43,001 bases of DNA from Kineococcus siccus (GTDB lineage Bacteria; Actinomycetota; Actinomycetes; Actinomycetales; Kineococcaceae). Below are positions 13,856 through 37,534 of this stretch, piece after piece (position 1 is the first letter of the stretch; each line of letters begins with the position of its first letter). The position numbers and the translations under genes were made by a program. Where the stretch lies: assembly GCF_009906795.1 (NCBI RefSeq), contig NZ_JAAALN010000011.1, positions 1-43,001 of the forward strand, given 5' to 3'. The notes beneath the pieces are model-generated. The model saw only the letters and a list, made by a program, of their open reading frames with translations. It was not told where the DNA came from and did no database searches.

Positions 13856-14138
13856 TGGGTAAGAAGGCCTGTCTGGCAACGGATGTCACCCGCGGTGCGT
13901 CGAGCGAGTGTCAGGTCAGCAGCGTCGCCGTCCGCTGATCAGACTGACGTCACGGTGTCGATCACGCACGTGGAGTCCGTGTCGGCGGCGACTGCTCTGA
14001 TGGGGGAAGGGGGGTGCCTGCGACAGGCGCCCGCAGCCGCCTGAGCTTGGCGGCGTGTCTGCTTGCCCCCGGACCAACGAGCACTTATGGTTTTGGTACC
14101 TCAAGTGAGGTGCCGATCTCATAAGCTCGGGAGTGTGC
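13856..14138. other. Left chromosome/island transition, no gene seen
   Basis: Base composition falls from very GC-rich to moderate across this 283-base stretch. The decamer GTCCGCTGAT occurs at 13847-13856 (end of the monooxygenase) and again at 13930-13939, and could mark an insertion scar. No copy of the tRNA-Lys 3' end was found here by eye. Confidence 0.4.
14095..14114. promoter_or_regulatory. Operator-like dyad upstream of the ImmA/IrrE pair
   Basis: GGTACCTCA-AG-TGAGGTGCC is a 20-bp inverted repeat with eight of nine pairs matching. It lies about 25 bases before the ATG at 14139. Binding by the XRE domain of the second gene of the pair is a reasonable inference. Confidence 0.5.
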
Positions 14139-14861
14139 ATGACGGTCAGTGATTCGCAAGGTGGGCGCGATGACGAATGGCAGCGTCAGCAGGAGGACCG
14201 CGCGAGGCGGGAATCTGAGCGGAGGCGTCTGTCGCCATTCCGTCTCACCACCGAGATGTGCCATCAGGTCTGTGCGGCGGCACTCGTCGAGTACCGGAGT
14301 GCACCTTCGCGCGGCTCAGCCAATGGGCCTGGGACCTACGCCTACCAGGGCGGGCTCTCAGAGCTGACTGACCAGCTCGAAGATGTTGGATACCTGCGTG
14401 ATGACGTCCTGAATCTTCCCGTCTTCATCAACGAGGATCTCGGACGGGCCATGCTGTTCACCTCTGGCGATGAGCTGACGGGCACTGTCGTCAAGGGACA
14501 GGCGCCTTCGACGAAGTACCCCAAGGGCGGGGTTACGCACCGGTTGATCCAGGGTAACCGTCGTCCTGGTCAGGATGTGCTTGGCTCGAGCGTCTCCTTC
14601 GAGGCTCTCCGCTCGGATTACGAGAGGCGGAGCGAGGAGATCAGTCAGCTATTGGAAAAGCTACAGGTCTATGTCTACCTCATGCATTTTGATCTGCACA
14701 CCATGCAGATTCGCCATGAGATTTCATTGCCTCGCCCACGGCAAGGAGACGGGTATGTGAAGTCTTGGCTCGAGCGGAACTTGATCTCCGCGTATCCTAT
14801 TGGGCCTGAGGAAATCCGTGGCGGAGAGACCGAAGTTAACTTTCCGGTTGACCCTCTGTAA
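14139..14861 (+). CDS. Hypothetical protein paired with XRE-ImmA/IrrE gene
   Basis: 240 residues from an ATG with GGGAG five bases upstream. A GTG two codons earlier is less well placed. The N-terminus (about 1-35) is charged and arginine/glutamate-rich. The rest is mixed alpha/beta with a helical segment LSELTDQLEDVGYLRDDVLN and the stretch LLEKLQVYVYLMHFDLHTMQ. I do not recognise the family. Codon use is less GC-biased than in the chromosomal genes. It is 13 bases from the metalloprotease gene, so the two probably form an operon, perhaps an effector or toxin and its regulator; that function is inferred from context only. Confidence 0.65.
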   Translation: MTVSDSQGGRDDEWQRQQEDRARRESERRRLSPFRLTTEMCHQVCAAALVEYRSAPSRGSANGPGTYAYQGGLSELTDQLEDVGYLRDDVLNLPVFINEDLGRAMLFTSGDELTGTVVKGQAPSTKYPKGGVTHRLIQGNRRPGQDVLGSSVSFEALRSDYERRSEEISQLLEKLQVYVYLMHFDLHTMQIRHEISLPRPRQGDGYVKSWLERNLISAYPIGPEEIRGGETEVNFPVDPL

Positions 14862-14874
14862 GTGGGGAGTGAAA

Positions 14875-15996
14875 TTGATCGAGCCATCGCGCCTAGTTCT
14901 TGCTAGAAAGCGCGCCGGGCTCACGGCATCGGCCCTTGCTCGGCTCGTGGATGTTACACCGCAAAGCATTCACAATTATGAGGCGGGGCGTCAAAGTCCT
15001 AGTGAAGAGACGTTGGGCCGCATTGCGGGCGCCTTGACGCTTCCGGAAAGCTTCTTTCGTCTAGGCCCTGTCTCTGACATAACAGCGGATGAAGTCTCTT
15101 TCCGTGCGCGAACTAAGATGGCGTCGCGTGTTCGAGGCATGGCGATATGTTCCGCCCAACTTGCTGTCGAAGTACGGGACTACGTGCTGTCGAATTTCAA
15201 AGTTCCGTCGGTCGATGTGCCCTATATCGAGCAGGACATGGAACCCGCCCTTGCCGCAGACTACGTTCGTTCGCGCTGGGGTTTGGACCGTCATGCTCCT
15301 GCACCCAACATGGTGCATCTGTTGGAGTCAAAGGGCGTGGCAGTGTTCTCGCTGCCGCCACTCGGTGAGCACCTTGATGCCTTTGCGTTCTGGCGTAATG
15401 ACGAACCGTTCGTGCTACTAAACCTGCAGAAGAGCGCCGAGCGGGGTCGGTTCGACGCGGCTCACGAGCTGGGACATCTCGTGCTGCATCGAGATACCAC
15501 CCGGCTCAACGGACGTGACATTGAGCGAGAAGCCAATGAATTTGCTTCAAGCTTCCTAATCCCAGCGACAGGAATTAACCGTCGCGTGCGTTCGAGCATC
15601 ACCTTGGATCGAATACTGCAAGAAAAATCGTATTGGCGTGTTGCGGCCATGGCCATGGCCTATCGGCTGCATGCGCTTGGGTTGCTGTCCGATTGGTCCT
15701 ATAGAAGTAATATTATTGCCTTGGGGCGCTTGGGTTATAGGACGGGTGAGCCGGCGGGCATGGAGCGCGAAAGATCGCTTCTCTTCCAAAAGGTCTTTGC
15801 GGCTAGCGGACGTGGTGCTGTAATCAAAGAAATGTCGAGCGAGACGGGACTTCCCTTAGGGGTGCTTGGAGAACTTACGTTCAGTGTTGAGCCGACTACC
15901 GTGCCCTCCTTGGGGGCGGCAAGCCCCAGCGCGAAGCGGATGGACGAAGTGAGCTCGGCGTGGCCTCGTCCGAAGCTAAAGGCCGTTGGCCACTGA
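14875..15996 (+). CDS. XRE HTH + ImmA/IrrE-type metalloprotease
   Basis: 373 residues from a TTG with GGGGAG five bases upstream. An in-frame GTG at 14869 is an alternative. The N-terminal XRE helix-turn-helix (about 4-60) contains GLTASALARLVDVTPQSIHN. It is followed by an ImmA/IrrE (DUF955) domain with the zinc signature HELGH (197-201) and a downstream EREANEFASSFLIP segment supplying the third ligand. Relatives cleave or inactivate repressors and antitoxins (ICEBs1 ImmA, Deinococcus IrrE) and often regulate phage or toxin modules. Here it follows a gene of unknown function and precedes a DUF262 gene, so a stress- or phage-responsive switch for this module is plausible. Confidence 0.85.
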   Translation: MIEPSRLVLARKRAGLTASALARLVDVTPQSIHNYEAGRQSPSEETLGRIAGALTLPESFFRLGPVSDITADEVSFRARTKMASRVRGMAICSAQLAVEVRDYVLSNFKVPSVDVPYIEQDMEPALAADYVRSRWGLDRHAPAPNMVHLLESKGVAVFSLPPLGEHLDAFAFWRNDEPFVLLNLQKSAERGRFDAAHELGHLVLHRDTTRLNGRDIEREANEFASSFLIPATGINRRVRSSITLDRILQEKSYWRVAAMAMAYRLHALGLLSDWSYRSNIIALGRLGYRTGEPAGMERERSLLFQKVFAASGRGAVIKEMSSETGLPLGVLGELTFSVEPTTVPSLGAASPSAKRMDEVSSAWPRPKLKAVGH

Positions 15997-16049
15997 TCTA
16001 CTGAAGCCCCGACGCGCTGTTTGGCTCAGCAATTTCCGCTCAAAAGTGC

Positions 16050-16101
16050 GCAAGTAGTGGCCAATGTGCACTTGCTTTATTCTTGACTTCCACTCTAGAT
16101 G
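16050..16101 (+). promoter_or_regulatory. Promoter and dyad upstream of the DUF262 gene
   Basis: GCAAGT (16050-16055) and ACTTGC (16070-16075) form an inverted repeat that runs into a possible -35, TTGCTT (16072-16077), followed by 18 bases and TAGATG (16096-16101). Transcription would start roughly 35 bases before the ATG at 16145. A related sequence, CGCACTTGTGCG, occurs at 18265-18276 ahead of the SLATT-RT genes, so one regulator may serve both. Weak. Confidence 0.35.
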
Positions 16102-16144
16102 CCTCAAGCTCTCGTACTTCGGTGCATAACGAAGGGACGCACAC

Positions 16145-17815
16145 ATGGACGCCCGCAATCGCTCGGTCGCTGACTGGTTACCTAGACTTCGGAGTGGACA
16201 AGTCCAACTGCCCCGGTTCCAGCGCTTTGAAGCATGGGGTTACGGCCAGGTCAAGGCTCTCCTGGAGAGCATCATCAATGACCTCCCCGCCGGCGCTGTA
16301 ACGGTTCTTGAGGTCGGTGATAACCCGCCCTTCAAGCATCGCGAGTTGGCGGGAGCTCCAGAATCAAAGGAGCGGCTCAATGAATTGCTTCTCGATGGGC
16401 AACAGCGCCTTACCGCGCTTTGGCGCAGTCTTACGGGTGACTATGAGGATCGGACGTACTACATCCTGTTGAATGAGGAAAGTAGTACAGACTACGGCGG
16501 CAGGGCAGTTGCGGCAGTTAAGCGCACTTACAAAGAGGGGAAGAAGTACCCCTTATGGGCTGATGACCCTGTGCAGTGCCTTGCTAAGGGCTATGTGCCG
16601 GCGACACTCTTGCTGCCGGAAACGGTTGGGGGGCCGCCACTTCAGGATTGGATCAAGGCGGCGACTAGCGGTGACGCCGCTCAAGGCATGGAGCTTATGG
16701 AATTGTTGACTAAGCTCCGAGGTAAGGTTAGCTCGTTCAATTTGCCGGCAATTTCCCTTCCAGTAGGTACGTCGAAGGCAACCGTCCTAGAAGTATTCAC
16801 TCGCATCAACACCGGCCACACGCCGCTCAGTGCCTTCGATATCGTGACCACCGATGTTGAAGAGGCAGTAGGCGCATCCCTTCATGACCTACTCGACACA
16901 CTTACGGGGACAGTGGCGGGCTTGAGTCGGTATGGCGATGTTCAAGACATCGTCTTGCGAACTGCTGCGCTCATGCAGAATCAAACTCCGGACCGGCCCA
17001 GCATTCTAGATCTGAACTGGAATCGAGTCGTGGATGAGTGGCCCTTGTTGGTCGATGGAGCACTCAAAGCCGTCGAATTCTTGGAGCAGGAGCGTTTGTT
17101 CGATGCGGCGCGCTTGCCTATCGTCACGCCGGTTCCGGCGCTCATTGCCCTTTGGTCCCAAACAAATGATTTGAAGCCAGATGCGGTGGGTGCTGCCCGC
17201 ACCAACTTGCGGAAGTACCTCTGGCGTGCGTTCTTTACTGAGAGGTACGAGAGCTCTGCTCATACGCAAGTGATTAAGGATGTGCGTGAGCTTGGAGAGC
17301 TGCTTCACGGCAAGAGGTCGGCCGATAAGGTTGACATCTTCAACCTGCCCTTGCCCGCCAGCGATGAACTAGCAACGGCGGCTTGGCCAAAGAAGCGGGA
17401 CCGCCTGGCGCGGAGCGTGTTGGCTGTGTCCCTCTATGGCTCAGCAATTGACTTGGCTGACGGCTCAAGCGTCAGCGCCGCCAGCCTGGGCCGGCGCGAG
17501 TACCATCACGTCTTCCCGGAAGGGTACCTCAAGAAGTTGGGCGAAAAGACTCCGTCTTCGCTCGCTTTAAATTGTGCCTTGATTACATGGCGCACAAATC
17601 GAACCATCAGCGACAAAGAGCCGTTGCAGTACATGAAGGAACGGTCGGAGGCCAGTAGCCTTGGTGACGAAGAGATTCTCTACCGATTGAAGACGCACGC
17701 TATTCCGTCAGCGCCGCTTTTGGCTAACGACTACAAGGCATTTTTGGACGAACGTCGTGAATTGGTCGAGGAAGCCATGAAGCAACTAACGGAGGGCATG
17801 CCGTTCAGTCCTTGA
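16145..17815 (+). CDS. DUF262/HNH protein, GmrSD-like
   Basis: 556 residues from an ATG preceded by AAGGGA. The N-terminal DUF262 (about 5-230) carries the signature LLLDGQQRLTAL (DGQQR at 84-88), a ParB-like NTP-using fold, and RINTGHTPLSAFDI further on. The C-terminal part (about 445-500) has a DUF1524/HNH-like pattern, EYHHVFPEGYL followed by ALNCALITWRTNRTI and a KEP segment. This combination is that of type IV restriction enzymes acting on modified phage DNA (GmrSD) and of related anti-phage nucleases. The protein stands alone, without obvious S or D partners, so the two activities are fused. Target modification is unknown. Confidence 0.82.
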   Translation: MDARNRSVADWLPRLRSGQVQLPRFQRFEAWGYGQVKALLESIINDLPAGAVTVLEVGDNPPFKHRELAGAPESKERLNELLLDGQQRLTALWRSLTGDYEDRTYYILLNEESSTDYGGRAVAAVKRTYKEGKKYPLWADDPVQCLAKGYVPATLLLPETVGGPPLQDWIKAATSGDAAQGMELMELLTKLRGKVSSFNLPAISLPVGTSKATVLEVFTRINTGHTPLSAFDIVTTDVEEAVGASLHDLLDTLTGTVAGLSRYGDVQDIVLRTAALMQNQTPDRPSILDLNWNRVVDEWPLLVDGALKAVEFLEQERLFDAARLPIVTPVPALIALWSQTNDLKPDAVGAARTNLRKYLWRAFFTERYESSAHTQVIKDVRELGELLHGKRSADKVDIFNLPLPASDELATAAWPKKRDRLARSVLAVSLYGSAIDLADGSSVSAASLGRREYHHVFPEGYLKKLGEKTPSSLALNCALITWRTNRTISDKEPLQYMKERSEASSLGDEEILYRLKTHAIPSAPLLANDYKAFLDERRELVEEAMKQLTEGMPFSP

Positions 17816-18360
17816 GGCGCTGGGTGGGGCCGAAACCGGCGCGCAGTGCCGCAGGCCGGCACCACCCCCTTGACGAAGTAGAGAGAGCGGAGAGGAGGTT
17901 CGCAGAGGGCGGCCAACCTATGCTGACAGAGCGCCGGCGTGCGGGTGGGGCGAGGCAGCTGCCGTCGTGTTGCCGTTGCAGTTGCCGTCAACCCGTAACG
18001 ATCACCGACATAGGTGGAAGCCATCGCTGGGTGGCCACGTCCACTACTTCGCCGGCCTCTTCGTCCCGAAGCTTCGCGGAGACACTGGGCGCCCCACTGT
18101 CGCTCTCTTCGCTCCTCTGGACGAGTACGCACTCCTCCTAGCTCGTGCGAACCCGTAGTCACGCAGATGGAGACGCAGGCTAAGACTCTCCACCAGCGGT
18201 CAGCACGCCGGCGCCTGCGCGACCGATGTCGAGTCTCCTGCGGCCGCAGCTCGGTCACTGTGTCCGCACTTGTGCGCTGCCCTCAGCGTTGTCAGCGTCA
18301 CAGCCCCAGCGCAAGACAGCCGAAGTTACCCGAAGTACTCACACGGCCACGATTTGCCTG
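17816..18360. other. Long non-coding stretch between the DUF262 gene and the RT module
   Basis: About 550 bases without a convincing gene. Short open frames on both strands, such as 17967-18158, have no start signals or recognisable domains. The stretch holds the paired GTTGCCGT repeats (17969-17988), a near-palindrome CGCACTTGTGCG (18265-18276) and, at its end, the promoter of the candidate RNA. The left end of the AICE may fall here. Confidence 0.5.
17969..17988 (+). repeat. Paired GTTGCCGT direct repeats, left copy
   Basis: GTTGCCGT occurs at 17969-17976 and 17981-17988, a period of 12 bases; the second copy reads on as GTTGCCGTCAACCC. The same word occurs in tandem at 29385-29410 near the tRNA. 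Both pairs run in the same direction. This is consistent with arm-type binding sites for the element's integrase, one pair near each end. Confidence 0.5.
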
Positions 18361-18366
18361 TAGGGT
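18338..18366 (+). promoter_or_regulatory. Promoter of the candidate RT-associated RNA
   Basis: CTCACA (18338-18343), 17 bases, TAGGGT (18361-18366). The expected start, 18373, coincides with the first paired base of the long closing helix of the RNA. The same TANNNT plus six-base geometry is seen at several gene starts in this window. Confidence 0.6.
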
Positions 18367-18372
18367 GAGCGT

Positions 18373-18508
18373 TGGCGGTTCGGTTGCTTGCTCGATTGGG
18401 CAGAACTGATAATCTGCGGCGCAAGCCGTTCCTTCGGGAGACTCGATTTCACGGGTGGTGACTTGATTTGTTATTTGACCGGAAACGGTCAGCAGCCGAA
18501 CCGCTGCT
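18373..18508 (+). ncRNA. Candidate structured RNA of the SLATT-RT system
   Basis: Bases 18373-18388 (TGGCGGTTCGGTTGCT) pair with 18491-18506 (AGCAGCCGAACCGCTG) in an uninterrupted 16-bp helix: 13 Watson-Crick and 3 G-U pairs. Inside are four hairpins: 18400-18417 (GCAGA/TCTGC), 18417-18428 (CGGC-GCAA-GCCG), 18429-18440 (TTCC-TTCG-GGAG) and 18477-18490 (GACCG-GAAA-CGGTC). Three have GNRA or UUCG tetraloops. The third and fourth are separated by a 36-base linker containing a direct repeat. The 3' strand can alternatively fold as AGCAGC-loop-GCTGCT. Position just upstream of SLATT and RT suggests a template or cofactor RNA. True ends are unknown; it may continue into the mRNA. Confidence 0.7.
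18440..18469 (+). repeat. Direct repeat framing a possible cDNA template
   Basis: GACTCGATTT (18440-18449) and GACTTGATTT (18460-18469) match at nine of ten bases with a 20-base period. They fall in the only long unpaired linker of the candidate RNA, between two tetraloop hairpins. A third partial copy, CTCGATT, is at 18391-18397. This is what a repeatedly re-used template would need, but function is inferred. Confidence 0.55.
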
Positions 18509-18521
18509 ACAACCCGAGGGC

Positions 18522-19117
18522 TTGCTTGAGGCCATCAGCAATTTGGCCAAGCGGTCATATGACACCTACAAAGGTCGACTTGAGGCTCACAAGCGTTTGA
18601 GTGCTCGCGGAAGCGCCTGGAACACCGCTCTCGTCGCTCTTTCTCTAAGTACCGTTATCGCCTCCGTGGGACTGCTTAGCGATTCCAACATCTATGGACC
18701 CAAAGGCGATTCGCTTATTGTTTCGGTGTCAATCTTGATGCTAATAGTATCGCTCGTCATCTCAAGCGCGAATTATGGATCGCGCAGCGCGCGAATGGAA
18801 GAAAGTTACAAAAGAATCCAAAAGATATCGGTTCAGGCCGAGAATTTGAGGGATCTGGCGCTCGGGCCACCGAAGAAGAGTATCGAGTGGTTTTTGCCGA
18901 CTACTACGCAGCTATTGACGGATCAGAGAATCATAGTGATGGCGATTACAGTCGCATTCTGCTTCGAGACGCGTCCGTCCAGTTGACTGCCGCCTCAGAA
19001 AAGCGTCATAAGCGCATTGCGGGCCGCCAAGCCGCACTCACGTACGCCCCCTACCTTTCCGTAGCGGCTGCCGCCTTATTCATTACTCCCTACATTCTCT
19101 GGCTTCTCGATGGCTGA
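18522..19117 (+). pseudogene. SLATT-domain membrane effector gene, frameshifted as read
   Basis: The first frame gives LEAISNLAKRSYDTYKGRLE, two membrane helices (NTALVALSLSTVIASVGLL and DSLIVSVSILMLIVSLVIS) and the helix ending RIQKISVQAENLRDLALG. The reading then has to move to the -1 frame for ATEEEYRVVFADYYAAIDGS and a third hydrophobic helix before the stop. One extra G in the GGG run at 18864-18866 would restore LALGATEEEYRV. SLATT proteins (family 5 is known with reverse transcriptases) are predicted pore-forming effectors. The start is uncertain: TTG 18522 or 18543. An open frame from TTG 18468 exists but overlaps the candidate RNA. The end overlaps the RT start by eight bases. Confidence 0.75.
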
Positions 19118-20495
19118 ACTTGAGCGAATTAGCGCAAGCGAGGCGTTCCGTTCGGCTACAACACAGAGGAACCTGCGCGAGATCTATCACCATCACGTCG
19201 CGGATAGCCGGGCCCGAGGGCGTGATGGTCTCGCTGGAGAGCACCTACTTAGTGGATTGCACCCTCTTTGCCGCCAGTTAAGTTTTTCCTTGCGCTCCGG
19301 CATGCAGGAGTTCACACAGTATCGAGAACTGCTGGCATCGAAGGGGGCGGGCAAGGCGCCTCGAGTGCTGTCCATACCCACCGCGCGGGATCGAATTGCA
19401 CTCAAAGCCTTATCGCAGACCCTAATTAGGGTCTTTCCGGAAGCATCGGGCGTTATACCTCAGGTTCGAGTGCGCGAGGTGTCGACAGCCCTAAGTGAGG
19501 GCATGTTCGACTCTTTTGTTCGGCTGGACGTCAAAAACTTCTATCCCTCCATACCTCTATCTGAGATTCAACGGGCTCTCACGACGCGCATCCATACTGC
19601 TTCGCTGATCGACGTCCTCTCTCGGGCCGTTAGTACACCAACTGTGGCTGACCGTTCGCCTCGTCGAGAGCTAGCAAACTTGGTAGGGATTCCCCAGGGA
19701 CTGTCCATATCGAACGTGCTGGCCGAGATTGTCGTAAACCCTATCGATTCCTACTTCAAATCTCGGACTGACCTGCACTACTTCCGATTCGTCGATGACG
19801 TTTTGATTCTGTGTGACCGAAACCTGGCTAGCGAACTAGCAGAGGAAGCCCGGTCTAGATTCGCAACCATTGGCCTTGAGACCCATCCCGTAAATGAACT
19901 AGGCAGCAAATCAACGGTGGGTGCCGTCAGTGATGGATTCGATTACCTTGGCTATCTATTCGGCGGCGGACACACATCGGTCCGCAAGTCCAGCATTTAC
20001 AACGTCGAGTCAACGCTAGCTCGCGCTTTCACGCGGTACAAAAAAGACCTAGCCGAGTCGAACGGAGCGCTGCAGCGCGAACAGATTTTGAATCGCTGCC
20101 TCTGGACCGTGAACGTTACCGTCTCGGGGTGCATCTACAAGCGCTCAGCGCGAGGGTGGATGCATTATTTTAGGCAGATGGACGATTTGGTCCTAGTAAA
20201 AAGGCTGGACGCGACCCTGCGGCGATTTCATAAGCGCTTCCGCATGCCTAATACCTTTGAGCCAAAAACCTTCATGCGAACCTACTGGGCTATCCGGAAC
20301 CCTAAAAATTCCCCTGCCGGCTACGTTCCTGATTTCGACGCGTACTCGACTGACAGAATGCGCAAACACCTGTCTGAAGTACTTGGAGAGAACGACGCCT
20401 ACGAGATCGAGCCAATTGAGGTTGAGAGGCGTTTCAAAACTCATATTGACAGAATGGTAACCGAACTAGAACGTGATGTTGCGTCAGTCTCCTGA
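19110..20495 (+). CDS. SLATT-linked defence-type reverse transcriptase
   Basis: 461 residues. RT blocks in order: RVLSIPTARDRI (about 85-96), block A SFVRLDVKNFYPSIP (aspartate 140), block B VGIPQGLSISNVLAEIV (192-208), block C YFRFVDDVLIL with catalytic FVDD at 227-230, block D GLETHPVNELGSK, and block E FDYLGYLF (277-284). A C-terminal extension of about 170 basic residues follows, without maturase, integrase or HNH motifs. It is not a group II intron or DGR RT. Its SLATT partner and lone context fit the UG/Abi (DRT) class, I believe UG10/DRT10. It is translationally coupled to SLATT through overlap at ATGGCTGA. Low GC compared with the AICE genes that follow. Confidence 0.88.
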   Translation: MAELERISASEAFRSATTQRNLREIYHHHVADSRARGRDGLAGEHLLSGLHPLCRQLSFSLRSGMQEFTQYRELLASKGAGKAPRVLSIPTARDRIALKALSQTLIRVFPEASGVIPQVRVREVSTALSEGMFDSFVRLDVKNFYPSIPLSEIQRALTTRIHTASLIDVLSRAVSTPTVADRSPRRELANLVGIPQGLSISNVLAEIVVNPIDSYFKSRTDLHYFRFVDDVLILCDRNLASELAEEARSRFATIGLETHPVNELGSKSTVGAVSDGFDYLGYLFGGGHTSVRKSSIYNVESTLARAFTRYKKDLAESNGALQREQILNRCLWTVNVTVSGCIYKRSARGWMHYFRQMDDLVLVKRLDATLRRFHKRFRMPNTFEPKTFMRTYWAIRNPKNSPAGYVPDFDAYSTDRMRKHLSEVLGENDAYEIEPIEVERRFKTHIDRMVTELERDVASVS

Positions 20496-20521
20496 CGGTC
20501 AAGCTTAGCTACTGGGTTGTG

Positions 20522-21088
20522 TTACATCACCGTGCGGTGGTAGCGGACCTCGGTGAGCTCGGAGCGCACGCAGGCGTCCAGGTGGCGCAGCGAGGAGCGG
20601 ATGCGCGGGGCGATGCCGCCGTCCAAGCGCTCCTCGGCGTCCCGGGCGGCCACCTCGGCGCTGTCGGGGTCGGCCACGGCGATGCGCACCCGGCACCCGT
20701 CGCCGGCCTTGGCGACCAGTCGAGTGCCCAGGGCGGGGTAGAGCTCGGGCAGGAACTGCACGGCGTAGCCGAGCACGTCCACGGCGTGGCGGGCGTCGTC
20801 GATGAGGCGCGTCCACAGCGAGCTAGGAGCGTCGGCGCGGTGGGCGTAGGCGGCGACGACCTCGGCGGTGCTGCCAGCGCTGCTGTCGAGCCGAGCCTCG
20901 CTGGTGGGCCACAGGTAGGCCTCGTCCTCGGCGACGAGCTTGGCCACCGCCCAGCGGTGCCGCTGGTGCGGCACCCGGCCCTTGAGCCAGCGCTGCACCG
21001 TCTTCTCGTCCACGCCGGTCACCTTATGGACGTCCTCGACGGTCACGGTCGCACGCACCATCGCGCGCCGCAGGCGTTCGTTCTCCAC
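20522..21088 (-). CDS. AICE HTH regulator, C-terminally truncated
   Basis: 188 residues from a GTG with GGAGG five bases upstream. The N-terminal HTH (about 1-60) reads VEDVHKVTGVDEKTVQRWLK, then VPHQRHRWAVAKLV and EDEAYLWP. The middle (about 85-165) is the PLD-like sensor region typical of actinobacterial element regulators (YAVQFLPELYPALGTRL, VRIAVADPDSAEVA). Family members continue after HRTV with a segment like YNSIYRADDELLVNTHIYG. Here the protein stops at RYHRTVM, so about 60 residues are missing. The break abuts the RT module, which probably replaced the end of the gene. It faces a divergent operator and the transfer operon. Repressor function may be lost or altered. Confidence 0.8.
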   Translation of the reverse strand: MENERLRRAMVRATVTVEDVHKVTGVDEKTVQRWLKGRVPHQRHRWAVAKLVAEDEAYLWPTSEARLDSSAGSTAEVVAAYAHRADAPSSLWTRLIDDARHAVDVLGYAVQFLPELYPALGTRLVAKAGDGCRVRIAVADPDSAEVAARDAEERLDGGIAPRIRSSLRHLDACVRSELTEVRYHRTVM

Positions 21089-21103
21089 GTCACCCTCCTC
21101 GCT

Positions 21104-21162
21104 GGGACGTTTTGACACTATCCCAGGGCGTCCCAAAACGTCCCACAGTGACGTTCGAACGT
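21104..21162. promoter_or_regulatory. AICE operator region: long inverted repeat plus a perfect palindrome
   Basis: GGGACGTTTTG (21104-21114) and CAAAACGTCCC (21134-21144) are an 11-bp perfect inverted repeat with a 19-bp spacer. The hexamer CGTCCC also repeats directly at 21129 and 21139. ACGTTCGAACGT (21151-21162) is a 12-bp perfect palindrome. All lie between the HTH regulator and the divergent transfer/replication operon and are likely binding sites of that regulator. Confidence 0.72.
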
Positions 21163-21249
21163 CCTTACGAAACCGGTGGACTCGGGATCACGGCGAGGAG
21201 CCGCTGAGGCAGGCCGCGGACACGAGCCGCTGACAACGAGGAGGACGAC

Positions 21250-21684
21250 ATGGCGATCCAGGGTGCGATCCCGCTGGGGCAGGACCTGGTGTTCCCGCAC
21301 GGGGCGTACGTGGTGGGCGAGGTCGAGCAGGTGCAGGACTTCGACCGCCGCCAGGCCGGCGAGGTGGACACGCAGTCGCGCGACAAGAACACCGGGGAGC
21401 GGCTGTGGGCGGTGCGGGTGATGGACGCCGACCCGGAGGCTCGCCGCGGTCAGGCGGAGGTCGTGGTCAAGATCGCCGCGGAGCACCAGCCGGTGCCGCC
21501 GGCGCCGCTGCCTGGCCTGCCGTTCCGCCCGGTGGTCTTCGAGGGCCTGACGGCGACGCCGTACGTGGACACCAACCGTGCCCGGCCCCGGCTGGCGTGG
21601 TCGCTGAAGGCCACGGGCATGTCCGCCCCTGGCAAGAGCACCGCGGCGAGCACCGCCAAGGTCGACGCGGGGCGGGCTGCCTGA
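21250..21684 (+). CDS. Small AICE protein of unknown function
   Basis: 144 residues from an ATG with GAGGAGG five bases upstream. It is a compact beta-rich protein (VYVVGEVEQV-like opening, then VRVMDADPEARRGQAEVVVK) with an alanine-rich tail. No catalytic motif is seen. Its position as first gene of the translocase/initiator operon is that of the conserved hypothetical proteins found in many AICEs. The stop overlaps the next start by one base. Confidence 0.72.
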   Translation: MAIQGAIPLGQDLVFPHGAYVVGEVEQVQDFDRRQAGEVDTQSRDKNTGERLWAVRVMDADPEARRGQAEVVVKIAAEHQPVPPAPLPGLPFRPVVFEGLTATPYVDTNRARPRLAWSLKATGMSAPGKSTAASTAKVDAGRAA

Positions 21685-21947
21685 TGCGGGCGGCGCACCT
21701 GCGCCATGCACGGGCGGAACGCAGCATCGCCGGGCAGATCGGTGCACTGCTGCGTTCCCGTCCCACCTCACAGACGCCGTATCGGGACCGTGCGACGTGG
21801 TTCGAGCGCAAGGCGCAGCTGTTCGGGCGCCTTGCCGAGCACTACGGCCAGGGCGACCCGCAGGAAGCGGCCGAGTGCCGCTACCTCGCCACCGTGGCCG
21901 CCGAGGAGGCGAGCCGGCTCCGCTCGGTCCAGGCGTTGGCTCGGTGA
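21684..21947 (+). CDS. Small helical AICE protein
   Basis: 87 residues, basic and helical (AERSIAGQIGALLRSRPTSQ, then FERKAQLFGRLAEHYGQGDP). No known domain. It overlaps the preceding stop by one base and the GTG of the translocase by four, so it belongs to the same operon and is probably translated. It may be a transfer or replication accessory protein. Confidence 0.65.
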   Translation: MRAAHLRHARAERSIAGQIGALLRSRPTSQTPYRDRATWFERKAQLFGRLAEHYGQGDPQEAAECRYLATVAAEEASRLRSVQALAR

Positions 21948-23428
21948 TCGGCGCACCGAGGGATGTGGTGACGCGCCAGCCCGCCCAGCGGGACACCACC
22001 TCCACTGACGACTGGGTGGCGGACCTGCTGTTGATGCTGCTCGAGCTGGCCTGGTGGCTGCTCAGGGGCGTCGTGCGGCTGGCGTGGCGCTTCCCCGTCC
22101 CCGCTGGGGTCGCGCTGGTCGGCTGGTGGGCCTACAGCACCGACCACCTGCTCGCGGTCGGCATCGTGGCCCTCGTCGTGGTGGTGGCCGTGGTGACGTG
22201 GCGTCTGGCCTGGCCCAGCTCGTTCCTGTGCTGGGTCTCGCGGCCGGCGTGGCGGCGGCGCAAGCGGCGGACGATCCGGCACAGCTGGCCCGATCTGTGC
22301 GAGCGGGTCGGCCTGGCGCTGACTGTCGTCGAGCACCGCTCCGGTGCCCGCTCGTCGTGGACGCCGGGGCTGTCCCGGCTGCGCTGGACCTCCCGTGAGC
22401 ACCTGGTGCTCTCGGCGCGGGTGCGGGTGGTCGCCGGGCAGACCGTCGACGACCTCGCTGCGGTGGCGGAGAACCTGGCGGCGGCGTGCGGGGCGTGGTC
22501 GTGCCGGGTGCGCAAGACGTCCCCGAACACCGCGGTCCTCACGTGGCTGTTCGGTGACCCGCTGGCGCACGTCGTCTCCCCGCTGCCCGTGCCGGACGTG
22601 GCCGACGCCGCGGCGGTGCCGGTGGGACTGCGCGAGGACGGACAGCCCTGGCTGCTGCGCCTGGCCGCCACCCACGTGCTCGTCGTCGGGGTCACCGGTG
22701 CCGGCAAGGGCTCGGTGGTGTGGTCGCTGCTCGGTGGCCTGGCCGGCGGCATCCGCGACGGGCTGGTGCAGGTGTGGGCCGTGGACGGCAAGGCTGGCAT
22801 GGAGCTCGAAGCGGGCCGGGCCCTGTTCACCCGCTTCGCCACCACCGTCGAGGACGGCGTGCAGCTGCTGGAGGACGCCGCCGTGCTGATGACCGAACGC
22901 GCGGCCCGGATGGCCGGTACCGCCCGCCAGCACGAGCCCTCCACGAGCGAGCCGCTGCTCCTCGTCCTGGTCGACGAGGTGGCGCTGCTGACGGCGTACA
23001 CCCCGGATCGCAAGCTGCGCGACCGGGCGGAGAAGGCGCTGGCCGTGATCGCCACGCAGGGACGGGCACCGGGTGTGGTGCTGGTGGCGGCCCTGCAGGA
23101 CCCGCGCAAGGAGGTCCTGGGCCTGCGCAACCTCTTCCCGACGAAGGTGGCGATGCGGCTGGATGAGAAGTCGCAGGTCGACATGGTCCTCGGCGAGGGG
23201 GCCCGCGACTCCGGGGCGCTGTGCCACCAAATCCCCGACACCACCCCGGGCGTCGCCTACGTCAAGGTCGACGGCATCCGCGAACCCGTGCGGGTGCGCG
23301 CCTCCTACTACGACGACGGCGCCATCGAGCAGCTGGCGCGGACGTACGCGCCGACGGGCCGGCCGGTGTTCTCCGTCGTCGACGACAAGCAGGCCGGCGA
23401 GCAGGCCCATGAGGAGGGGGCCGCGTGA
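21944..23428 (+). CDS. FtsK/SpoIIIE-type DNA translocase (TraSA-like)
   Basis: 494 residues from a GTG overlapping the previous stop (GTGA). Two or three N-terminal membrane helices (about 20-95) are followed by a linker and an FtsK ATPase domain with Walker A GVTGAGKG (about 249-256) and Walker B LLLVLVDEV (about 339-347). In AICEs and conjugative Streptomyces plasmids such a single protein forms a septal hexamer that moves double-stranded DNA between mycelial cells. The usual C-terminal wHTH that reads clt sites is not obvious; the tail is short. It is coupled to the initiator gene by another 4-base overlap. Confidence 0.88.
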   Translation: MIGAPRDVVTRQPAQRDTTSTDDWVADLLLMLLELAWWLLRGVVRLAWRFPVPAGVALVGWWAYSTDHLLAVGIVALVVVVAVVTWRLAWPSSFLCWVSRPAWRRRKRRTIRHSWPDLCERVGLALTVVEHRSGARSSWTPGLSRLRWTSREHLVLSARVRVVAGQTVDDLAAVAENLAAACGAWSCRVRKTSPNTAVLTWLFGDPLAHVVSPLPVPDVADAAAVPVGLREDGQPWLLRLAATHVLVVGVTGAGKGSVVWSLLGGLAGGIRDGLVQVWAVDGKAGMELEAGRALFTRFATTVEDGVQLLEDAAVLMTERAARMAGTARQHEPSTSEPLLLVLVDEVALLTAYTPDRKLRDRAEKALAVIATQGRAPGVVLVAALQDPRKEVLGLRNLFPTKVAMRLDEKSQVDMVLGEGARDSGALCHQIPDTTPGVAYVKVDGIREPVRVRASYYDDGAIEQLARTYAPTGRPVFSVVDDKQAGEQAHEEGAA

Positions 23429-24930
23429 GCGCCACGACCGCTCCTGCATCGCATGTTGTGGCGGCTGCTGTGGAGGCTGAGGCCGGTCAGCGCTTGCTGT
23501 CCCCGACGTTCGAGCGGTGGGCCGAGCAGGCCGCGAACTGCGGGCACTGCGCCCGACCGATCCGGTTGCGCGGGCAGGCCACTACCGTCGACCGGGCCAC
23601 CGGTGAGGTCCTGTCGACCTACGACTCGGCCACCGAGCCGGACGGGGTGCTGTACGCGCGCTGCGGCAACCGGCGGGCGAGCGTGTGCCCCTCGTGCAGC
23701 CACGAGTACAAGGGCGACATGTGGCACCTGCTCGCCGCCGGCGCCGCCGGGGGGATGAAGGGCGTGCCAGAGTCGGTGGCCACCCACCCGCTGGTGTTCG
23801 CCACGCTGACCGCTCCCTCCTTCGGGGCTGTGCACGGTGTGCGGCGCCGCTCGGGACGTCCGACGAAGTGCCGGCCACGTGCCACCTCCGCGACGTGTGA
23901 GCACGGTCGGCCGCTCGGCTGCCGCACGGTGCACGCCGAGGGGGACCGCCGGTTGGGACAGCCGTTGTGCGCGCAGTGCTACGACTACACCGGGCACGTG
24001 GTGTGGCAGTGGTGGGCACCGGAGCTGTGGCGCCGCTTCACCATCACGCTGCGCCGGGTGCTGGCCGCCTCCCTCGCGCTGACGCAGAAGGAGGCGCACG
24101 CCCTGGTGCGGGTCTCGTTCGCGAAGGTCGCGGAGTTCCAGCGCCGCGGCGTGGTCCACTTCCACGCCCTCATCCGCCTGGACGGGCCACCGACGAGGTC
24201 GGAGGAGTTCCCAGCTCCACTCATCGACGTGAGCGCCCAACGGCTGTGCGAGCTGGTGCACATCGCCGCCTCGCGAGTGTGGTTCGACGCGCCCGCCACC
24301 GCACCGGGCGAGCCACTGCGCCGGCTGCGGTTCGGAGCCCAGGTCGATGCTCGCGCCGTCACCGCGGACGCCACCCGAGAGACCGGACGCGCCGATGATC
24401 CGGACGAGGGCCTGCATCCGGAGACGGTCGCGGCCTACATCGCCAAGTACGCCACCAAGGCGTGCGACGACTTCGGGCTGCCGCCCCAGCTCCGCGATCC
24501 CGAGGCCGCCCGGCGCATGGGCATCGCCGAGCACGTCTGCCGCCTGCTGGCAGAAGTGCATCGCCTGGCACGCACCGGCGGGGCGAGGTACCTGGCGCTG
24601 GCCAAGTGGGTGTCGATGATCGGCTTCCGCGGTCACTTCTCGACGAAGTCCCGCCGCTACTCCACCACTCTCGGCCGGCTCCGCTCCGCTCGGAAGCGGT
24701 GGGCCGTCGAGCGACTGCGTGACCGCCTCATCCGCCCGGCGTCCGTCGATGAGCGCGATGCCATCCCGTCCGAGGGTGAGGACACCACGCTCGTCGTCAG
24801 CTCGTGGTCATTCGACGGCATCGGGTGGCTGACTGCGGGGGATGCGGCGCTGGCCGCCACTGCTGCGGCACAGGCTCGCGAGTGGACCGATGAGCGGGCC
24901 AAGAGGCGACGTGAGCTGCTGCGTAGGTGA
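23425..24930 (+). CDS. Rolling-circle replication initiator (RepSA-like, HUH)
   Basis: 501 residues from a GTG overlapping the translocase stop. An N-terminal cysteine-rich segment (CGHCARP, then CGNRRASVCPSC) resembles the zinc ribbon of pSAM2/pIJ101-type initiators. Motif 2 is VVHFHALIRL (about 242-251), the HUH metal site. Motif 3 is AAYIAKYATK (about 335-344), carrying the nicking tyrosine and the lysine of YxxK. It should nick the double-strand origin and start replication of the excised circle. A strong inverted repeat just downstream (24999-25065) is a candidate origin or terminator. Confidence 0.88.
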   Translation: MSATTAPASHVVAAAVEAEAGQRLLSPTFERWAEQAANCGHCARPIRLRGQATTVDRATGEVLSTYDSATEPDGVLYARCGNRRASVCPSCSHEYKGDMWHLLAAGAAGGMKGVPESVATHPLVFATLTAPSFGAVHGVRRRSGRPTKCRPRATSATCEHGRPLGCRTVHAEGDRRLGQPLCAQCYDYTGHVVWQWWAPELWRRFTITLRRVLAASLALTQKEAHALVRVSFAKVAEFQRRGVVHFHALIRLDGPPTRSEEFPAPLIDVSAQRLCELVHIAASRVWFDAPATAPGEPLRRLRFGAQVDARAVTADATRETGRADDPDEGLHPETVAAYIAKYATKACDDFGLPPQLRDPEAARRMGIAEHVCRLLAEVHRLARTGGARYLALAKWVSMIGFRGHFSTKSRRYSTTLGRLRSARKRWAVERLRDRLIRPASVDERDAIPSEGEDTTLVVSSWSFDGIGWLTAGDAALAATAAAQAREWTDERAKRRRELLRR

Positions 24931-24998
24931 CGTGGTGGTGGGGGAGCGGGGACCACTGCAGGGCGTCCGCCCGATGTAGAGCGCCTTCCTGGTCGGTC

Positions 24999-25065
24999 GG
25001 TGCCCGTCAAGGGACGAGCGCAGCGAGATCACGAAGTGACGCCAGAGGCGCCCTTGACGGGCACC
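24999..25065. repeat. 15-bp perfect inverted repeat, candidate origin or terminator
   Basis: GGTGCCCGTCAAGGG (24999-25013) and CCCTTGACGGGCACC (25051-25065) pair perfectly across a 37-base loop, at whose centre TCAC-GAA-GTGA (25029-25039) forms a small hairpin. It lies in the 240-base non-coding gap between the replication initiator and the excisionase. A double- or single-strand origin of rolling-circle replication, or a transcription terminator between operons, are the main options. No T-tract follows, which argues slightly for an origin. Confidence 0.6.
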
Positions 25066-25169
25066 GGGCGGCCTGGACCCTGCGGCATCGGGAGGCCGCC
25101 CCAGGCGAGGCAGAAGACAACGGCGACCACGACCGGCGCGTACGCGACGAGGTCAGGAACGGGGTGTTG

Positions 25170-25355
25170 ATGATGGAGAAGCTGCTGCTCTCTCCGGAAG
25201 AGGCGGCCGAGGTGCTCGGCGTGGGACGTTCGACGGTGTACGACCTGATGAGGATGCGCCTGCTGCCGAGCGTGAAGATCGGCCGCTCGCGCCGCATACC
25301 GGTCGAGGCGCTCCGTCAGTACGTGCAGCGGCTGACGACGTCGGACGTGGCATGA
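25170..25355 (+). CDS. xis: Excisionase (MerR/AlpA-type HTH)
   Basis: 61 residues. SPEEAAEVLGVGRSTVYDLM followed by LLPSVKIGRSRRIPVEAL is the DNA-binding excisionase fold (HTH_17). The start could be ATG 25170, ATG 25173 or GTG 25164, the last having the best-placed AGGA. The stop overlaps the integrase ATG by four bases, so excisionase and integrase are made together. It directs the integrase towards excision of the element. Confidence 0.85.
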   Translation: MMEKLLLSPEEAAEVLGVGRSTVYDLMRMRLLPSVKIGRSRRIPVEALRQYVQRLTTSDVA

Positions 25356-26485
25356 GCAAGCGCGCCAACGGCGAGGGCACCATCTACCAGCGCAAGGACG
25401 GGCGCTGGGAGGGATCGTGCTACGTGCTGTTGCCATCCGGCGGCCGAGCTCGGCGCAGCGTCTACGGGCGGACGCGCGCAGAGGTGCGCGAGAAGCTGAC
25501 GGCGCTGCAGCGGGAGAGTGACCGTGGTGTGCCGGTCGAGGCGTCGGGAACGCTGACCGTGGGTGCCTACTTGGAGACGTGGCTCCGCGACGTCGCAGCA
25601 CCGAAGGTGCAGCCAGCCACGTACCGGGGCTACGAGATGTACATCCGGCGGCACCTCGTCCCGGGCCTCGGGCGCAAGAGGCTGTCGCGGCTGTCGCCAG
25701 CGGACGTGCGCGCTTTCCTCGCCGACCGCCGTGCAGCTGGTCTGTCGCCGGCGTCGGTCAAGCAGGTCCACGCGATCTTGCGTGCCGCATTGCAGCACGC
25801 CGTGCGTGAGGACCTGCTTCCCCGCAACGTTGCCCGCCTCGTCGTGGTGCCGAACGCCCCGCGCCACGAATGGCAGCCGTTGTCGATCGAGGAGGCACGA
25901 GCGCTACTCGATGCGGCTCGAGGTGATCGCCTGTACCCGCTGTGGGCAGTGGCGCTGGCTGTGGGGTTGCGCCGCGGAGAAGCGCTCGGCTTGCGCTGGT
26001 GCGACGTCGACCTAGACGCCGGGTTGCTGCACGTGCGCCAGGCGCTGCAGCGCACGACGGAAGGACTGGTGCTCGTTCCGCCGAAGTCTGAACGCTCCCG
26101 GCGTACCGTGCCTCTTCCTGCTGTCGCACGCGGTGCTTTGCGTGAGCATCGACAAGTGATGGCGGCGGAAGCGCTGCGGGCGGGTCGGCCCATGACTGCT
26201 GACACGCTAGTGTTCATCACGCCGATCGGGACTCCCATGGAGCCTCGCAATGTGAGTCGCGCGTTCGTCGATCTATTGCAGGCAGCAGGGCTGCGGCGGA
26301 CGCGGCTCCACGACCTGCGGCACACCTGCGCCACGCTGCTGCTGGCTCAGGGCGTGCCGGCCCGTGTCGTCATGGAAGTTCTTGGGCACAGCGGCATCAC
26401 TCTGACCATGAACACGTACAGCCACGTCCTACCGACGGTGTTGCAGGAAGCGGCGACCCACATGGACCAGATTTTTGAAGGCTAG
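25352..26485 (+). CDS. int: Tyrosine-family site-specific integrase
   Basis: 377 residues. The N-terminal arm-binding domain (about 1-60, GTIYQRKDGRWEGSCYV) is followed by a core-binding SAM-like domain (about 68-155) and a catalytic domain. Catalytic residues seen: arginine in GLRRGEALGLRW (about 205), HDLRHTCATLL (histidine 320, arginine 323), LGHSGITLTM, and nucleophile tyrosine 356 in MNTYSHVLP. Full length and apparently intact. Unusually, it is about 3 kb from the tRNA-Lys attachment site, with two cargo genes in between, whereas AICE integrases normally lie beside att. Confidence 0.9.
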   Translation: MSKRANGEGTIYQRKDGRWEGSCYVLLPSGGRARRSVYGRTRAEVREKLTALQRESDRGVPVEASGTLTVGAYLETWLRDVAAPKVQPATYRGYEMYIRRHLVPGLGRKRLSRLSPADVRAFLADRRAAGLSPASVKQVHAILRAALQHAVREDLLPRNVARLVVVPNAPRHEWQPLSIEEARALLDAARGDRLYPLWAVALAVGLRRGEALGLRWCDVDLDAGLLHVRQALQRTTEGLVLVPPKSERSRRTVPLPAVARGALREHRQVMAAEALRAGRPMTADTLVFITPIGTPMEPRNVSRAFVDLLQAAGLRRTRLHDLRHTCATLLLAQGVPARVVMEVLGHSGITLTMNTYSHVLPTVLQEAATHMDQIFEG

Positions 26486-26623
26486 AGGAGCTGGCTCTCG
26501 TTCGCCGCCGTCTCTACCTCCAGATTTTTTGCACGAGATAGGACTGCGCCTGTTGCAAATGGCGCCGCCGTGTTAGAGGCTAGCAGTCCGCCGTTGTAGC
26601 AAACGAGTACCAGTGAGGTTTCT

Positions 26624-28102
26624 ATGCCTGCTAGCTCTACTTCTTTCGGCAGCTTGTACTTCGGTGAGGCTGGCGCGGAAGTTGAGGCAGAGAAATACCC
26701 AGAATTATTCAAGAACAGCTTTTACGATCTAGCTGGTGTTGTCGCAAAAGTGAACGATGGTGACGCATTTTTGCTTATCGGGCCAAAGGGGGCTGGTAAA
26801 TCCAGCTATATCGAGTATGTTCAGTTAATGTCAACCGACTCCGTGGGGCAATTTGTTACGAAAAAAGATCTTGGGGAGCTAAGGGGCGCACTGCAGAGCG
26901 ACTCCACCCTTTCCAGGGCGGGCTCGGAGATCACGGAGTTGGCATGGTCTACCTGGCTGTGGATTCAGCTATTCGATTCTGTAATGAAGGACCAGAGTTC
27001 GTCGTGTCATCGTGATCCGTCTATTGCTGGGTTACATCGCGAGTTGCGCAGTGCGGGTCTATTGAGCGGCGACTTTCGCAGCGTTGTTCAGGCTGTCCGG
27101 AAAAAGCAGCATAAATTCTCGGCACCTAAATTTTACGAGTACACGAGTGAGAGCAGTGGCGAGACGCGAGTTAATATTTCGCAGCTGCGCGATATTCTTG
27201 AAGTGGTAGTAACTCAGGCCGAAACTTCCAATCAGCACATGCTCGCCCTAGATGGTCTCGATAGTGCCATTATTGGCAGCACAAGTTACTGGCAGCAATT
27301 GGCGGCGCTATTGCGGGCCTGTACGGTAGTGCATCGCAAGGTGCGAAGCGCTCAGAGTCACATCCGAGTAGTTATGCTTTGTCGAAGTGATGTCCTGCTA
27401 AAGATTCCTCTCCCAGACTCCAATAAAATTCGTCAGGGTTGGGGATTAGAGTTTGATTGGTCCTATGGACTGGATACTCCAGAAGACTCGCACCTGTGGG
27501 ATCTTGTAGAGAAGAAGGCCTCTGCGCGAGGCCGGCCAATCGCTAACCTCATCGACACTTACTTTCCTCAAGACATGGAGGTAGGTGGACGCACACATTT
27601 ACGCAGGATTCCCATGCCGCGGTACCTAATGGAGCTCACGCGAGGCACGCCTCGGGATATGATTATGTTGCTTAAAAAAATCCAACAGCAGGCGCCGAAT
27701 GTCACCGAATTGAGCGTAAGGCATGTCAGGGCAGGAGTTAATGCTTATTGTAAGGATTACTTCGCCGGCGAGGTGGCGAATGAGCTCGTTGGCCTTGTCC
27801 CGGATGCCATCGCGTCCGGCGCGGTAGGGGCGCTGTCCAGACTGCCTAGCCGACGATTTACGCGAGGTGAATTCCTCGATGTCTTTCGTGATCTGCTCAC
27901 GGCCAATGAAGTTTCAGCCGACGAGTTGCTACAGCAATTGTATTTGGCTGGCGCGGTGGCTAATGTTATCCCTGGGCAGAGAGAAGATTATGTCCGGTTC
28001 TACCACCGTCGAAGTCATGCGGACGTTTCTCTGCAGGGGCCCTTCCTGCTACATACGGCCCTGACGATTTCGTTGAATCTTCCTTTCGGCGCGAGGCTCT
28101 GA
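26624..28102 (+). CDS. P-loop ATPase, Sll1717-like, defence-associated
   Basis: 492 residues from an ATG with GTGAGG six bases upstream. The opening LYFGEAGAEVEAEKYPELF and Walker A GPKGAGKS (53-60) fit the P-loop family named after Synechocystis Sll1717. Walker B is in HMLALDGLDSA (about 205-215). A region about 260-350 includes RVVMLCRSDVLLKI (sensor-like), and a C-terminal helical or winged-helix part follows (about 395-490). Relatives appear in defence islands as sensor ATPases, but the mechanism is unclear. Markedly A/T-rich next to the integrase, so separately acquired. It is convergent with the DUF91-like nuclease gene, so the two are not an operon. Confidence 0.75.
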   Translation: MPASSTSFGSLYFGEAGAEVEAEKYPELFKNSFYDLAGVVAKVNDGDAFLLIGPKGAGKSSYIEYVQLMSTDSVGQFVTKKDLGELRGALQSDSTLSRAGSEITELAWSTWLWIQLFDSVMKDQSSSCHRDPSIAGLHRELRSAGLLSGDFRSVVQAVRKKQHKFSAPKFYEYTSESSGETRVNISQLRDILEVVVTQAETSNQHMLALDGLDSAIIGSTSYWQQLAALLRACTVVHRKVRSAQSHIRVVMLCRSDVLLKIPLPDSNKIRQGWGLEFDWSYGLDTPEDSHLWDLVEKKASARGRPIANLIDTYFPQDMEVGGRTHLRRIPMPRYLMELTRGTPRDMIMLLKKIQQQAPNVTELSVRHVRAGVNAYCKDYFAGEVANELVGLVPDAIASGAVGALSRLPSRRFTRGEFLDVFRDLLTANEVSADELLQQLYLAGAVANVIPGQREDYVRFYHRRSHADVSLQGPFLLHTALTISLNLPFGARL

Positions 28103-28187
28103 CTTTCGTGCACGACTTTTGTTCATTTCAGGGCTGATCTGGATCGCTGCCCCGCGATTGGGCGAAGGCTGGCGACCTGCACACCTT

Positions 28188-29270
28188 TTAGGTGGTTGGC
28201 GCTTCGCCACTCGCCAGGAACTCGGTGGCCATGGCGTACAAGCTCTTACCTTGGTACGTCCATGCATCGGGTCCTGAAATAGTCGGCGCAGAACCATCAG
28301 TGGCACACGCAATGATGTGCTGTACAAGTTTGGTGGGGGACCAACCGTCCACATCAGGTTCTCCCAACCAGTGGACCGGCTTCTGCCGGTCACTCCGCCA
28401 GGTAGCGACCGATCGAGCAGGATCCTCCGAGATCCACTGGTTGACTGCAGTGACCACCTCGGGCTTCTGCAGTGTCTCGAGGCGCAGAGTGAGTTGGCTG
28501 CCGTTCGGGATCAGTAAGTTGTCGACGATGACAGCCGCTGAACGCTGCTGCCGGGTGCGTTGTGCGATCTTGGCGCTCACGCTCCCGGCGTTCGTCGTGA
28601 CTGTGGGACCCAGGACTCGATCTGCCATGTCATCGATCGGGAAGATCTGTTGGAAGGTCGCGCACAGGCCCGACCCGTCGTTGGGGTCGACGAACAGGCT
28701 GAGCTCGACGCAGTAGATCTCCAGCTCTTGTGGGGCCAGCTCAGTCAGCCAGCTGACGGTGGACATCACCTGAGATGGGAAGCGCTCGGCAATCAGCACA
28801 ATGCGCGGTCGCGTGAGGAGCTCCTCGCCCCACTCTCCCTCGACGTGATCCGTCAGCCGTGCGAGAGCGGCCTCAGGTGTCACCGGCTCCTCGGCTGTCC
28901 GGTTGAGGTACTCCGCGTGCACTGCGCCGAGCGCCTCCTTGGTGAAGCGAGCCACGAGGGCTGCGTAGGTCAACGCTTGGAGGTGGACGCGCTTGTCACC
29001 GTCGCGCTTGAGCTCCACGACCACGAGCTGGCCGGTCGAGTCCAGGCCGAGGACGTCCAGGCGCTCTGTGGCCACCTGCCCGCCGGCAGTCGCCCAACGG
29101 TCGAACTGCTGCGTGATCACGCGGACGTTGCCGCCGAGGACCTCCGGGTGCTCCACTACCCAAGGCTCGAGGTGGTCCACCTCCAAGAGCCCCTGCTTGT
29201 CCAAGCGCGTCCGCTCGAAGGGAGTGGCCTTCGCGCCAACCACCCTGAAGACGTGTGCAGCTGGACTCAC
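28188..29270 (-). CDS. DUF91/NucS-like PD-(D/E)XK nuclease protein
   Basis: 360 residues from a GTG. The N-terminal half has a DUF91-type pattern: EPWVVEHPEVLGGNV, then ERLDVLGLDSTGQLVVVELK, with the D-(x)n-ExK nuclease core (aspartate near residue 70, EXK near 84-86), then HLQALTYAALVARF. The rest (about 180-360) is an additional alpha/beta region ending in SGPDAWTYQGKSLYAM, not recognised. NucS-type enzymes cut branched or mismatched DNA; related proteins occur as defence nucleases. GC content is intermediate between cargo and chromosome. It is the last gene before tRNA-Lys. Confidence 0.72.
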   Translation of the reverse strand: MSPAAHVFRVVGAKATPFERTRLDKQGLLEVDHLEPWVVEHPEVLGGNVRVITQQFDRWATAGGQVATERLDVLGLDSTGQLVVVELKRDGDKRVHLQALTYAALVARFTKEALGAVHAEYLNRTAEEPVTPEAALARLTDHVEGEWGEELLTRPRIVLIAERFPSQVMSTVSWLTELAPQELEIYCVELSLFVDPNDGSGLCATFQQIFPIDDMADRVLGPTVTTNAGSVSAKIAQRTRQQRSAAVIVDNLLIPNGSQLTLRLETLQKPEVVTAVNQWISEDPARSVATWRSDRQKPVHWLGEPDVDGWSPTKLVQHIIACATDGSAPTISGPDAWTYQGKSLYAMATEFLASGEAPTT

Positions 29271-29384
29271 AGTGATCGCCCCTCGTCGTCGGCCTCAAGC
29301 GCACCCTAGGGGCTGCTGCGGGCGACGTGCATGTGCCTCCAGAATGCACCGGACCCGCGCGACGCCGGCGTGCTCACCGCAGAG

Positions 29385-29410
29385 GTTGCCGTCACCCGTT
29401 GCCGTCACGG
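29385..29410 (+). repeat. Tandem GTTGCCGTCAC repeats next to tRNA-Lys, right copy
   Basis: GTTGCCGTCACCC (29385-29397) is followed at once by GTTGCCGTCACGG (29398-29410): 11 of 13 bases match. They sit about 50 bases inside the tRNA end. With the similar pair at 17969-17988 they are candidate integrase arm-type sites marking both ends of the AICE. Confidence 0.55.
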
Positions 29411-29456
29411 CGTCCGAGTGGTGCCTCGCAGGAAGCATCAGTGCAGGTCGAGCGGG

Positions 29457-29529: not shown

Positions 29530-29538
29530 GGGCGCGCA

Positions 29539-37424: not shown

Positions 37425-37450
37425 CGCTCCCGGGTGCTACGGTCGCCCAC

Positions 37451-37529: not shown

Positions 37530-37534
37530 ACGGC

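Follow-up and report, generated by a model that had tools for sequence, protein, structure and literature searches.

A putative DRT10-type ncRNA beside a UG17 reverse transcriptase and a frame-broken SLATT gene on an actinobacterial island

The locus and its genomic setting

The window, i.e. the whole stretch of 43,001 nucleotides that was analysed, carries on its forward strand an ncRNA of DRT10 type (about 134 nt, 18373-18506 from the central helix strand P1 to its partner P1'), recognized by its fold, by covariation and by covariance models, followed by a frame-broken gene for a SLATT_5 effector (18522-19117; the start is uncertain, a TTG at 18522 being possible) and by the gene for a 461-aa UG17 (DRT10) reverse transcriptase (RT; 19110-20495). 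The combination of a UG17 RT, SLATT and an upstream ncRNA has been named DRT10 in a 2025 preprint by Tang et al. (PMC12632851). A name for the system (DRT10 = UG17) therefore exists in that preprint, and the window holds a divergent actinobacterial member of it. The word "actinobacterial" never occurs in the main text of the preprint.

The locus lies within a low-GC island at 14.0-29.5 kb (14000-29530), in which the GC content is 52-74 % per kb vs about 76 % in the host. The island genes comprise FtsK/TraB-like, replication-initiator-like and excisionase-like ones, as well as an integrase located close to a tRNA gene, the core roles being read from sequence. The island has the look of an integrative element of actinobacteria with defence genes as its cargo. 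Just upstream of DRT10, 14800-17815 encodes an RmrA-like protein (HTH + ImmA/IrrE) and another with a DUF262/GmrSD_N domain. The presence of the RmrA-like and GmrSD_N-domain genes beside DRT10 suggests a small defence island. An ordinary TPP riboswitch (66 bits) is located in another part of the window, at 37445-37542.

The RT gene is open over 461 codons, and its product has an intact [YF]xDD active site in the form FVDD, retains all columns invariant across 48 UG17 RTs and ends in ...ASVS, the terminal Ser being conserved in most of the UG17 RTs collected. The PADLOC RT_UG17 profile matched it with E 1.1e-132, which makes it the class of RT found in DRT10 and corrects the initial annotation, where its class was given as UG10. 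UG10 models gave E 3e-10 and 3e-9, and that identity was rejected. The same applies to DRT9, since the Drt9 profile gave E 1.4e-9 and the poly-U template is absent from the RNA loop described below. In the RT tree the window groups with the actinobacterial loci L112, L009 and L010 (SH-aLRT 96), the next branches out being L002/L003/L013 and L011 (SH-aLRT 91 and 93), and this clade is separate from the Eco3-like and Eco1-like RTs of E. coli; the identity to aligned proteobacterial UG17 RTs is about 31-38 %. The structural model of the RT reached a mean pLDDT of 94, with a low-confidence C-terminal tail (pLDDT 38), and its nearest solved folds are the group II intron, G2L4 and DRT9 RTs (DRT9 9nlx, E 7.7e-14).

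About 90 UG17 loci were collected by scanning genomes, from hits on plasmids and by searching whole genomes. The system is rare: it was found in 3 of the 395 sampled genomes of the class and in 4 of the 396 sampled genomes of the order, the window's own included. No relatives of the RT were found in the viral contigs searched and no nucleotide relatives in the plasmids searched; the phages searched yielded only remote RTs.

Structure and conservation of the upstream RNA

The central helix P1 is formed by 18373-18388 (5' strand) and 18491-18506 (3' strand, P1') and comprises 16 bp, 13 of them Watson-Crick and 3 G-U, as had been proposed in the initial annotation. It encloses five hairpins, SL2 to SL6, one more than had been counted there, and the GCAA, UUCG and GAAA tetraloops attributed to three of them were seen in SL3, SL4 and SL6, respectively. 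SL2 (18388-18403), with the core UUGCUC-GAUU-GGGCAG, is supported by the fold and by covariation and is followed by a conserved single-stranded element, ACUGAUAA (18406-18413), defined from alignments A3 and A4 and the motif list. This element is common to the Eco3-type DRT10 RNAs, where it reads CUCUGAUAA (alignments A3 and A4). SL3 with its GCAA loop (18416-18429) and the short SL4 with its UUCG loop (18430-18439) are predicted from the fold, SL4 being longer in the relatives than in the window. SL5 (18441-18456), predicted by folding and covariation, is the counterpart of the essential SL5/template boundary of Eco3 DRT10 (PMC12632851). The 20-nt template loop (18457-18476), positioned by homology, separates SL5 from SL6 (18477-18490), a hairpin with a GAAA loop that lies in the predicted fold between the template loop and P1' and was found in the actinobacterial RNAs.

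Folding of 18373-18510 gave -63.3 kcal/mol, in comparison to -43.3 ± 3.8 kcal/mol for 200 dinucleotide-preserving shuffles (z -5.32), none of which folded as well. An Rfam search returned no match at 18.3-18.5 kb.

A promoter, CTCACA-17-TAGGGT, had been proposed to start transcription at 18373. Its elements are in place, with a weak −35-like CTCACA at 18338-18343, a 17-nt spacer and the −10 element TAGGGT at 18361-18366 (forward strand), which follows the TANNNT pattern conserved before the helix in relatives. In 8 of the 9 actinobacterial loci TANNNT ends 5-7 nt ahead of where P1 begins; it occurs almost nowhere else within 40 nt, and its random placement reached at most 2 of the 9 loci in 20,000 trials. 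A generic sigma-70 promoter scan of the locus, on the other hand, called no promoter, and no common −35 was seen by eye across the 9 loci. The conserved −10 element supports a transcription start at 18373, the first base of P1, which should be read as a position deduced from that element and not as a mapped end.

The covariation alignment comprised nine actinobacterial upstream RNAs; L119 was not taken as independent, its RNA and SLATT start being the same as those of L009. RNAalifold recovered P1, SL2 and SL5 from this alignment, with 12 pairs showing changes on both sides. In the alignment as given 96.7 % of cells were paired, in comparison to 85.5 % after shuffling and 30-46 % when the partner was slid by 1-3 columns. 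The compensatory changes in the 16-bp helix that the initial annotation had named as decisive were present: both-sided changes occurred in 8 of the 12 counted P1 pairs among the 9 loci, with 100 % of the cells paired, and in 4 of the 7 pairs of SL2.

A covariance search had also been proposed in the initial annotation. The model R3, built from seven relatives with the window left out, matched the window at 18375-18504 with 87.5 bits (E 4.5e-19). When both strands of the 43-kb window were searched with R2, a model of 17 proteobacterial DRT10 RNAs that contains no actinobacteria, the sole match was 18372-18507, full length and weak (11.8 bits, E 0.34); the same model gave E 0.02 on the actinobacterial loci L010 and L009 and E 4e-25 on the E. 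coli RNA. In the opposite direction, the actinobacterial models matched Pseudomonas loci just upstream of SLATT, again weakly (E 0.009 and 0.03); the scores of models across phyla are low. These results show homology between the window RNA and the RNAs that precede SLATT-UG17 pairs, those of E. coli included.

The RNA identified by RIP-seq in the characterised systems is 137 nt long, immediately precedes SLATT and folds into a large central stem plus four smaller stem-loops (PMC12632851). The window has an RNA of this kind, about 137 nt long and upstream of SLATT, with a closing stem and one hairpin more than the E. coli type. The earlier interpretation is partly supported. The proposed cofactor or template RNA of a SLATT-linked defence RT, located directly upstream of SLATT, appears right in kind; the RNA was called undescribed, but its family has already been defined experimentally for DRT10 = UG17 (PMC12632851). 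The segment 18373-18506 is very probably the ncRNA of a DRT10 (UG17) anti-phage system located on an apparent integrative element of a GC-rich actinobacterial host.

The SLATT gene and its overlap with the RNA

Homology to SLATT_5 spans the gene, yet it runs in two frames, with an unclear start. The frame of 18522 is followed by that of 18851-19117, and the break, which the initial annotation had missed, falls within about 18855-18868. No SLATT start codon preceded by a ribosome-binding site in a suitable position was found just after the RNA in the window. In nearly all of the UG17 loci collected SLATT is a single open frame; it is split in the window and in L036, and SLATT was not detectable in L080 and L086. 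Because of this prevalence of a single open frame, a mutation or an assembly error is likelier than programmed frameshifting, which was set aside. The window copy has either lost SLATT or carries an indel from the draft assembly (495 contigs). With the SLATT frame broken and the start codon of the relatives missing, the RNA/RT arm looks intact, and the effector arm, barring an assembly error at the frame break, is probably inactive.

The same defects raise the question of present activity. The locus could be a decayed DRT10 in which the RNA and the RT persist only through recent insertion and nothing is functional, a reading compatible with the family assignment. The low GC content of the recent island and the lack of any UG17 match among the genomes sampled from the same genus speak for it together with the frame break and the missing start, but the full 461-aa RT frame with all the columns invariant over 48 UG17 RTs, the fully paired RNA helix and the possibility of an indel error in an assembly of 495 contigs make decay unlikely, roughly a one-in-several prospect.

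The position of the SLATT start in relatives brings the RNA and the effector gene together. P1' of L002, L003 and L013 contains a GTG that is in frame with SLATT, with GGAG upstream of it in the 3' strand of SL6, and in L013 this GTG is the only ATG, GTG or TTG that follows the upstream stop and precedes the conserved SLATT domain. A GTG occupies the same P1' site in L009, L010, L112 and L063. In the folded RNA the GTG start is predicted to be fully paired, and the ribosome-binding site located in SL6 of L002, L003 and L013 is predicted to be paired as well. The window has GCA (18492-18494, within P1') where the relatives carry the SLATT GTG, and the helix is kept. In L011 the SLATT start is an ATG downstream of the RNA, and proteobacteria likewise start SLATT after the RNA.

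It is conceivable, although we would sooner bet against it, that in the actinobacterial DRT10 branch folding of the RNA and SLATT translation are mutually exclusive, the template RNA also locking translation of the effector. If so, one transcript would serve either as the RT cofactor or as the SLATT message, RT/RNA folding would gate a toxic effector, and the window would represent a member in which the lock was lost (GTG to GCA with the helix kept) along with the SLATT frame.

A stricter version, in which the RNA is only a cis-regulatory leader of the SLATT-RT operon (an attenuator or a ribosome-binding-site lock) with no template role, is very improbable. The predicted pairing of the GTG in P1' and of the ribosome-binding site in SL6 in L002, L003 and L013 would suit such a leader, and so would a read-through transcript, which is plausible because the terminator scan revealed no terminator-like site after the RNA. 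Nevertheless, homologous E. coli RNAs bind the RT and template cDNA (PMC12632851), the helix is kept in the window without the GTG, and in L011 and proteobacteria the SLATT start lies downstream of the RNA. The Leucobacter locus L045 also argues against a leader: its gene order is RT then SLATT (2278-4487), and the ncRNA model matches 2278-2441, just before the RT and with SLATT downstream of the RT.

A stable fold arising by chance, good folding being common among GC-rich spacers, deserves practically no credence against a z of -5.3 vs shuffles, the covariation and the out-of-sample homology; it is already refuted by the covariation and the out-of-sample model, and the RNA structure at 18373-18506 is confirmed as genuine.

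Proposed mechanism and comparison with known systems

DRT10 has been described as a telomerase-like system, in which a short ncRNA template is copied into tandem-repeat DNA (PMC12632851). In the same work a 20-nt template loop patterned as A-B-A' was placed immediately 3' of SL5, and the RT was reported to prime from its own C-terminal Ser or Tyr and to yield tandem-repeat single-stranded DNA (PMC12632851). Carried over from the E. coli systems to the DRT10 assignment of the window, this would mean that the RT binds the ncRNA, that SL5 sets the 5' template boundary and that a primer on the C-terminal serine of the RT allows reverse transcription of the 20-nt loop (18457-18476). The new strand would then slip back from A to A' to give tandem-repeat single-stranded DNA, AACAAAT repeats being the best guess. 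In the known systems the SLATT membrane effector is believed to be under the control of this repeat DNA.

The guess derives from the longest direct repeat in the loop, AUUUG (18466-18470) and AUUUG (18473-18477) separated by UU (18471-18472), which is tentatively taken as the candidate A-B-A', AUUUG-UU-AUUUG, with AACAAAT as the predicted cDNA repeat; UUGA-UUUGUUAU-UUGA is an alternative template pattern. The 5-nt A/A' repeat is not significant for the window alone (P 0.18) and weakly significant over the nine actinobacterial loops (P 0.027), and the same method applied to 17 Eco3-type loops gave P 0/500. The E. coli allele L118 of the DRT10 RNA holds CAATGATTCCAAT, i.e. the Eco3 template as published with the A' after it.

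These data widen the range of the DRT10 ncRNA to include a divergent clade of actinobacteria, supported by covariation. They add the 3' hairpin beside the template (SL6) and the overlap of the RNA with the effector start codon in relatives, which bear on how the repeat DNA and SLATT connect. A locus in which SLATT is broken while the RT and the RNA are intact may serve as a natural experiment on whether the effector is dispensable or costly.

The closest known system is the Eco3DRT10 type (PMC12632851), which shares with the window the UG17 RT with a SLATT_5 partner, an RNA of about 137 nt that immediately precedes SLATT, a closing central stem with hairpins, the conserved CUGAUAA element, the C-terminal Ser of the RT and a loop of about 20 nt with a hairpin next to it on the 5' side. 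It differs in that the actinobacterial RNAs have SL6 3' of the template loop, whereas in the E. coli Eco3-type RNA examined SL6 is missing and the closing strand comes after the loop. In addition, the window RT belongs to the actinobacterial clade, P1 of the window is long (16 bp), SLATT starts inside P1' in the relatives of the window, and in the window SLATT is broken.

The UG10 RTs are also of the UG class, but the profile match of the window RT to them is far weaker than to UG17; the partner recorded for 61 % of UG10 RTs is an AE_Prim_S_like primase domain, not SLATT (PMC8934634). The DRT9 ncRNA has a similar overall architecture (PMC12632851), and DRT9 is among the best fold matches of the RT; however, the window loop, GGUGACUUGAUUUGUUAUUU, has a longest U run of 3 and thus no poly-U template, and by profile the RT is not Drt9. 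Telomerase RNA is alike in principle: its short template comes with an alignment segment and with a boundary element on the 5' side, as argued in PMC12632851. The window system, unlike telomerase, is bacterial and would be protein-primed, and the likeness is claimed in the working principle and not as sequence homology.
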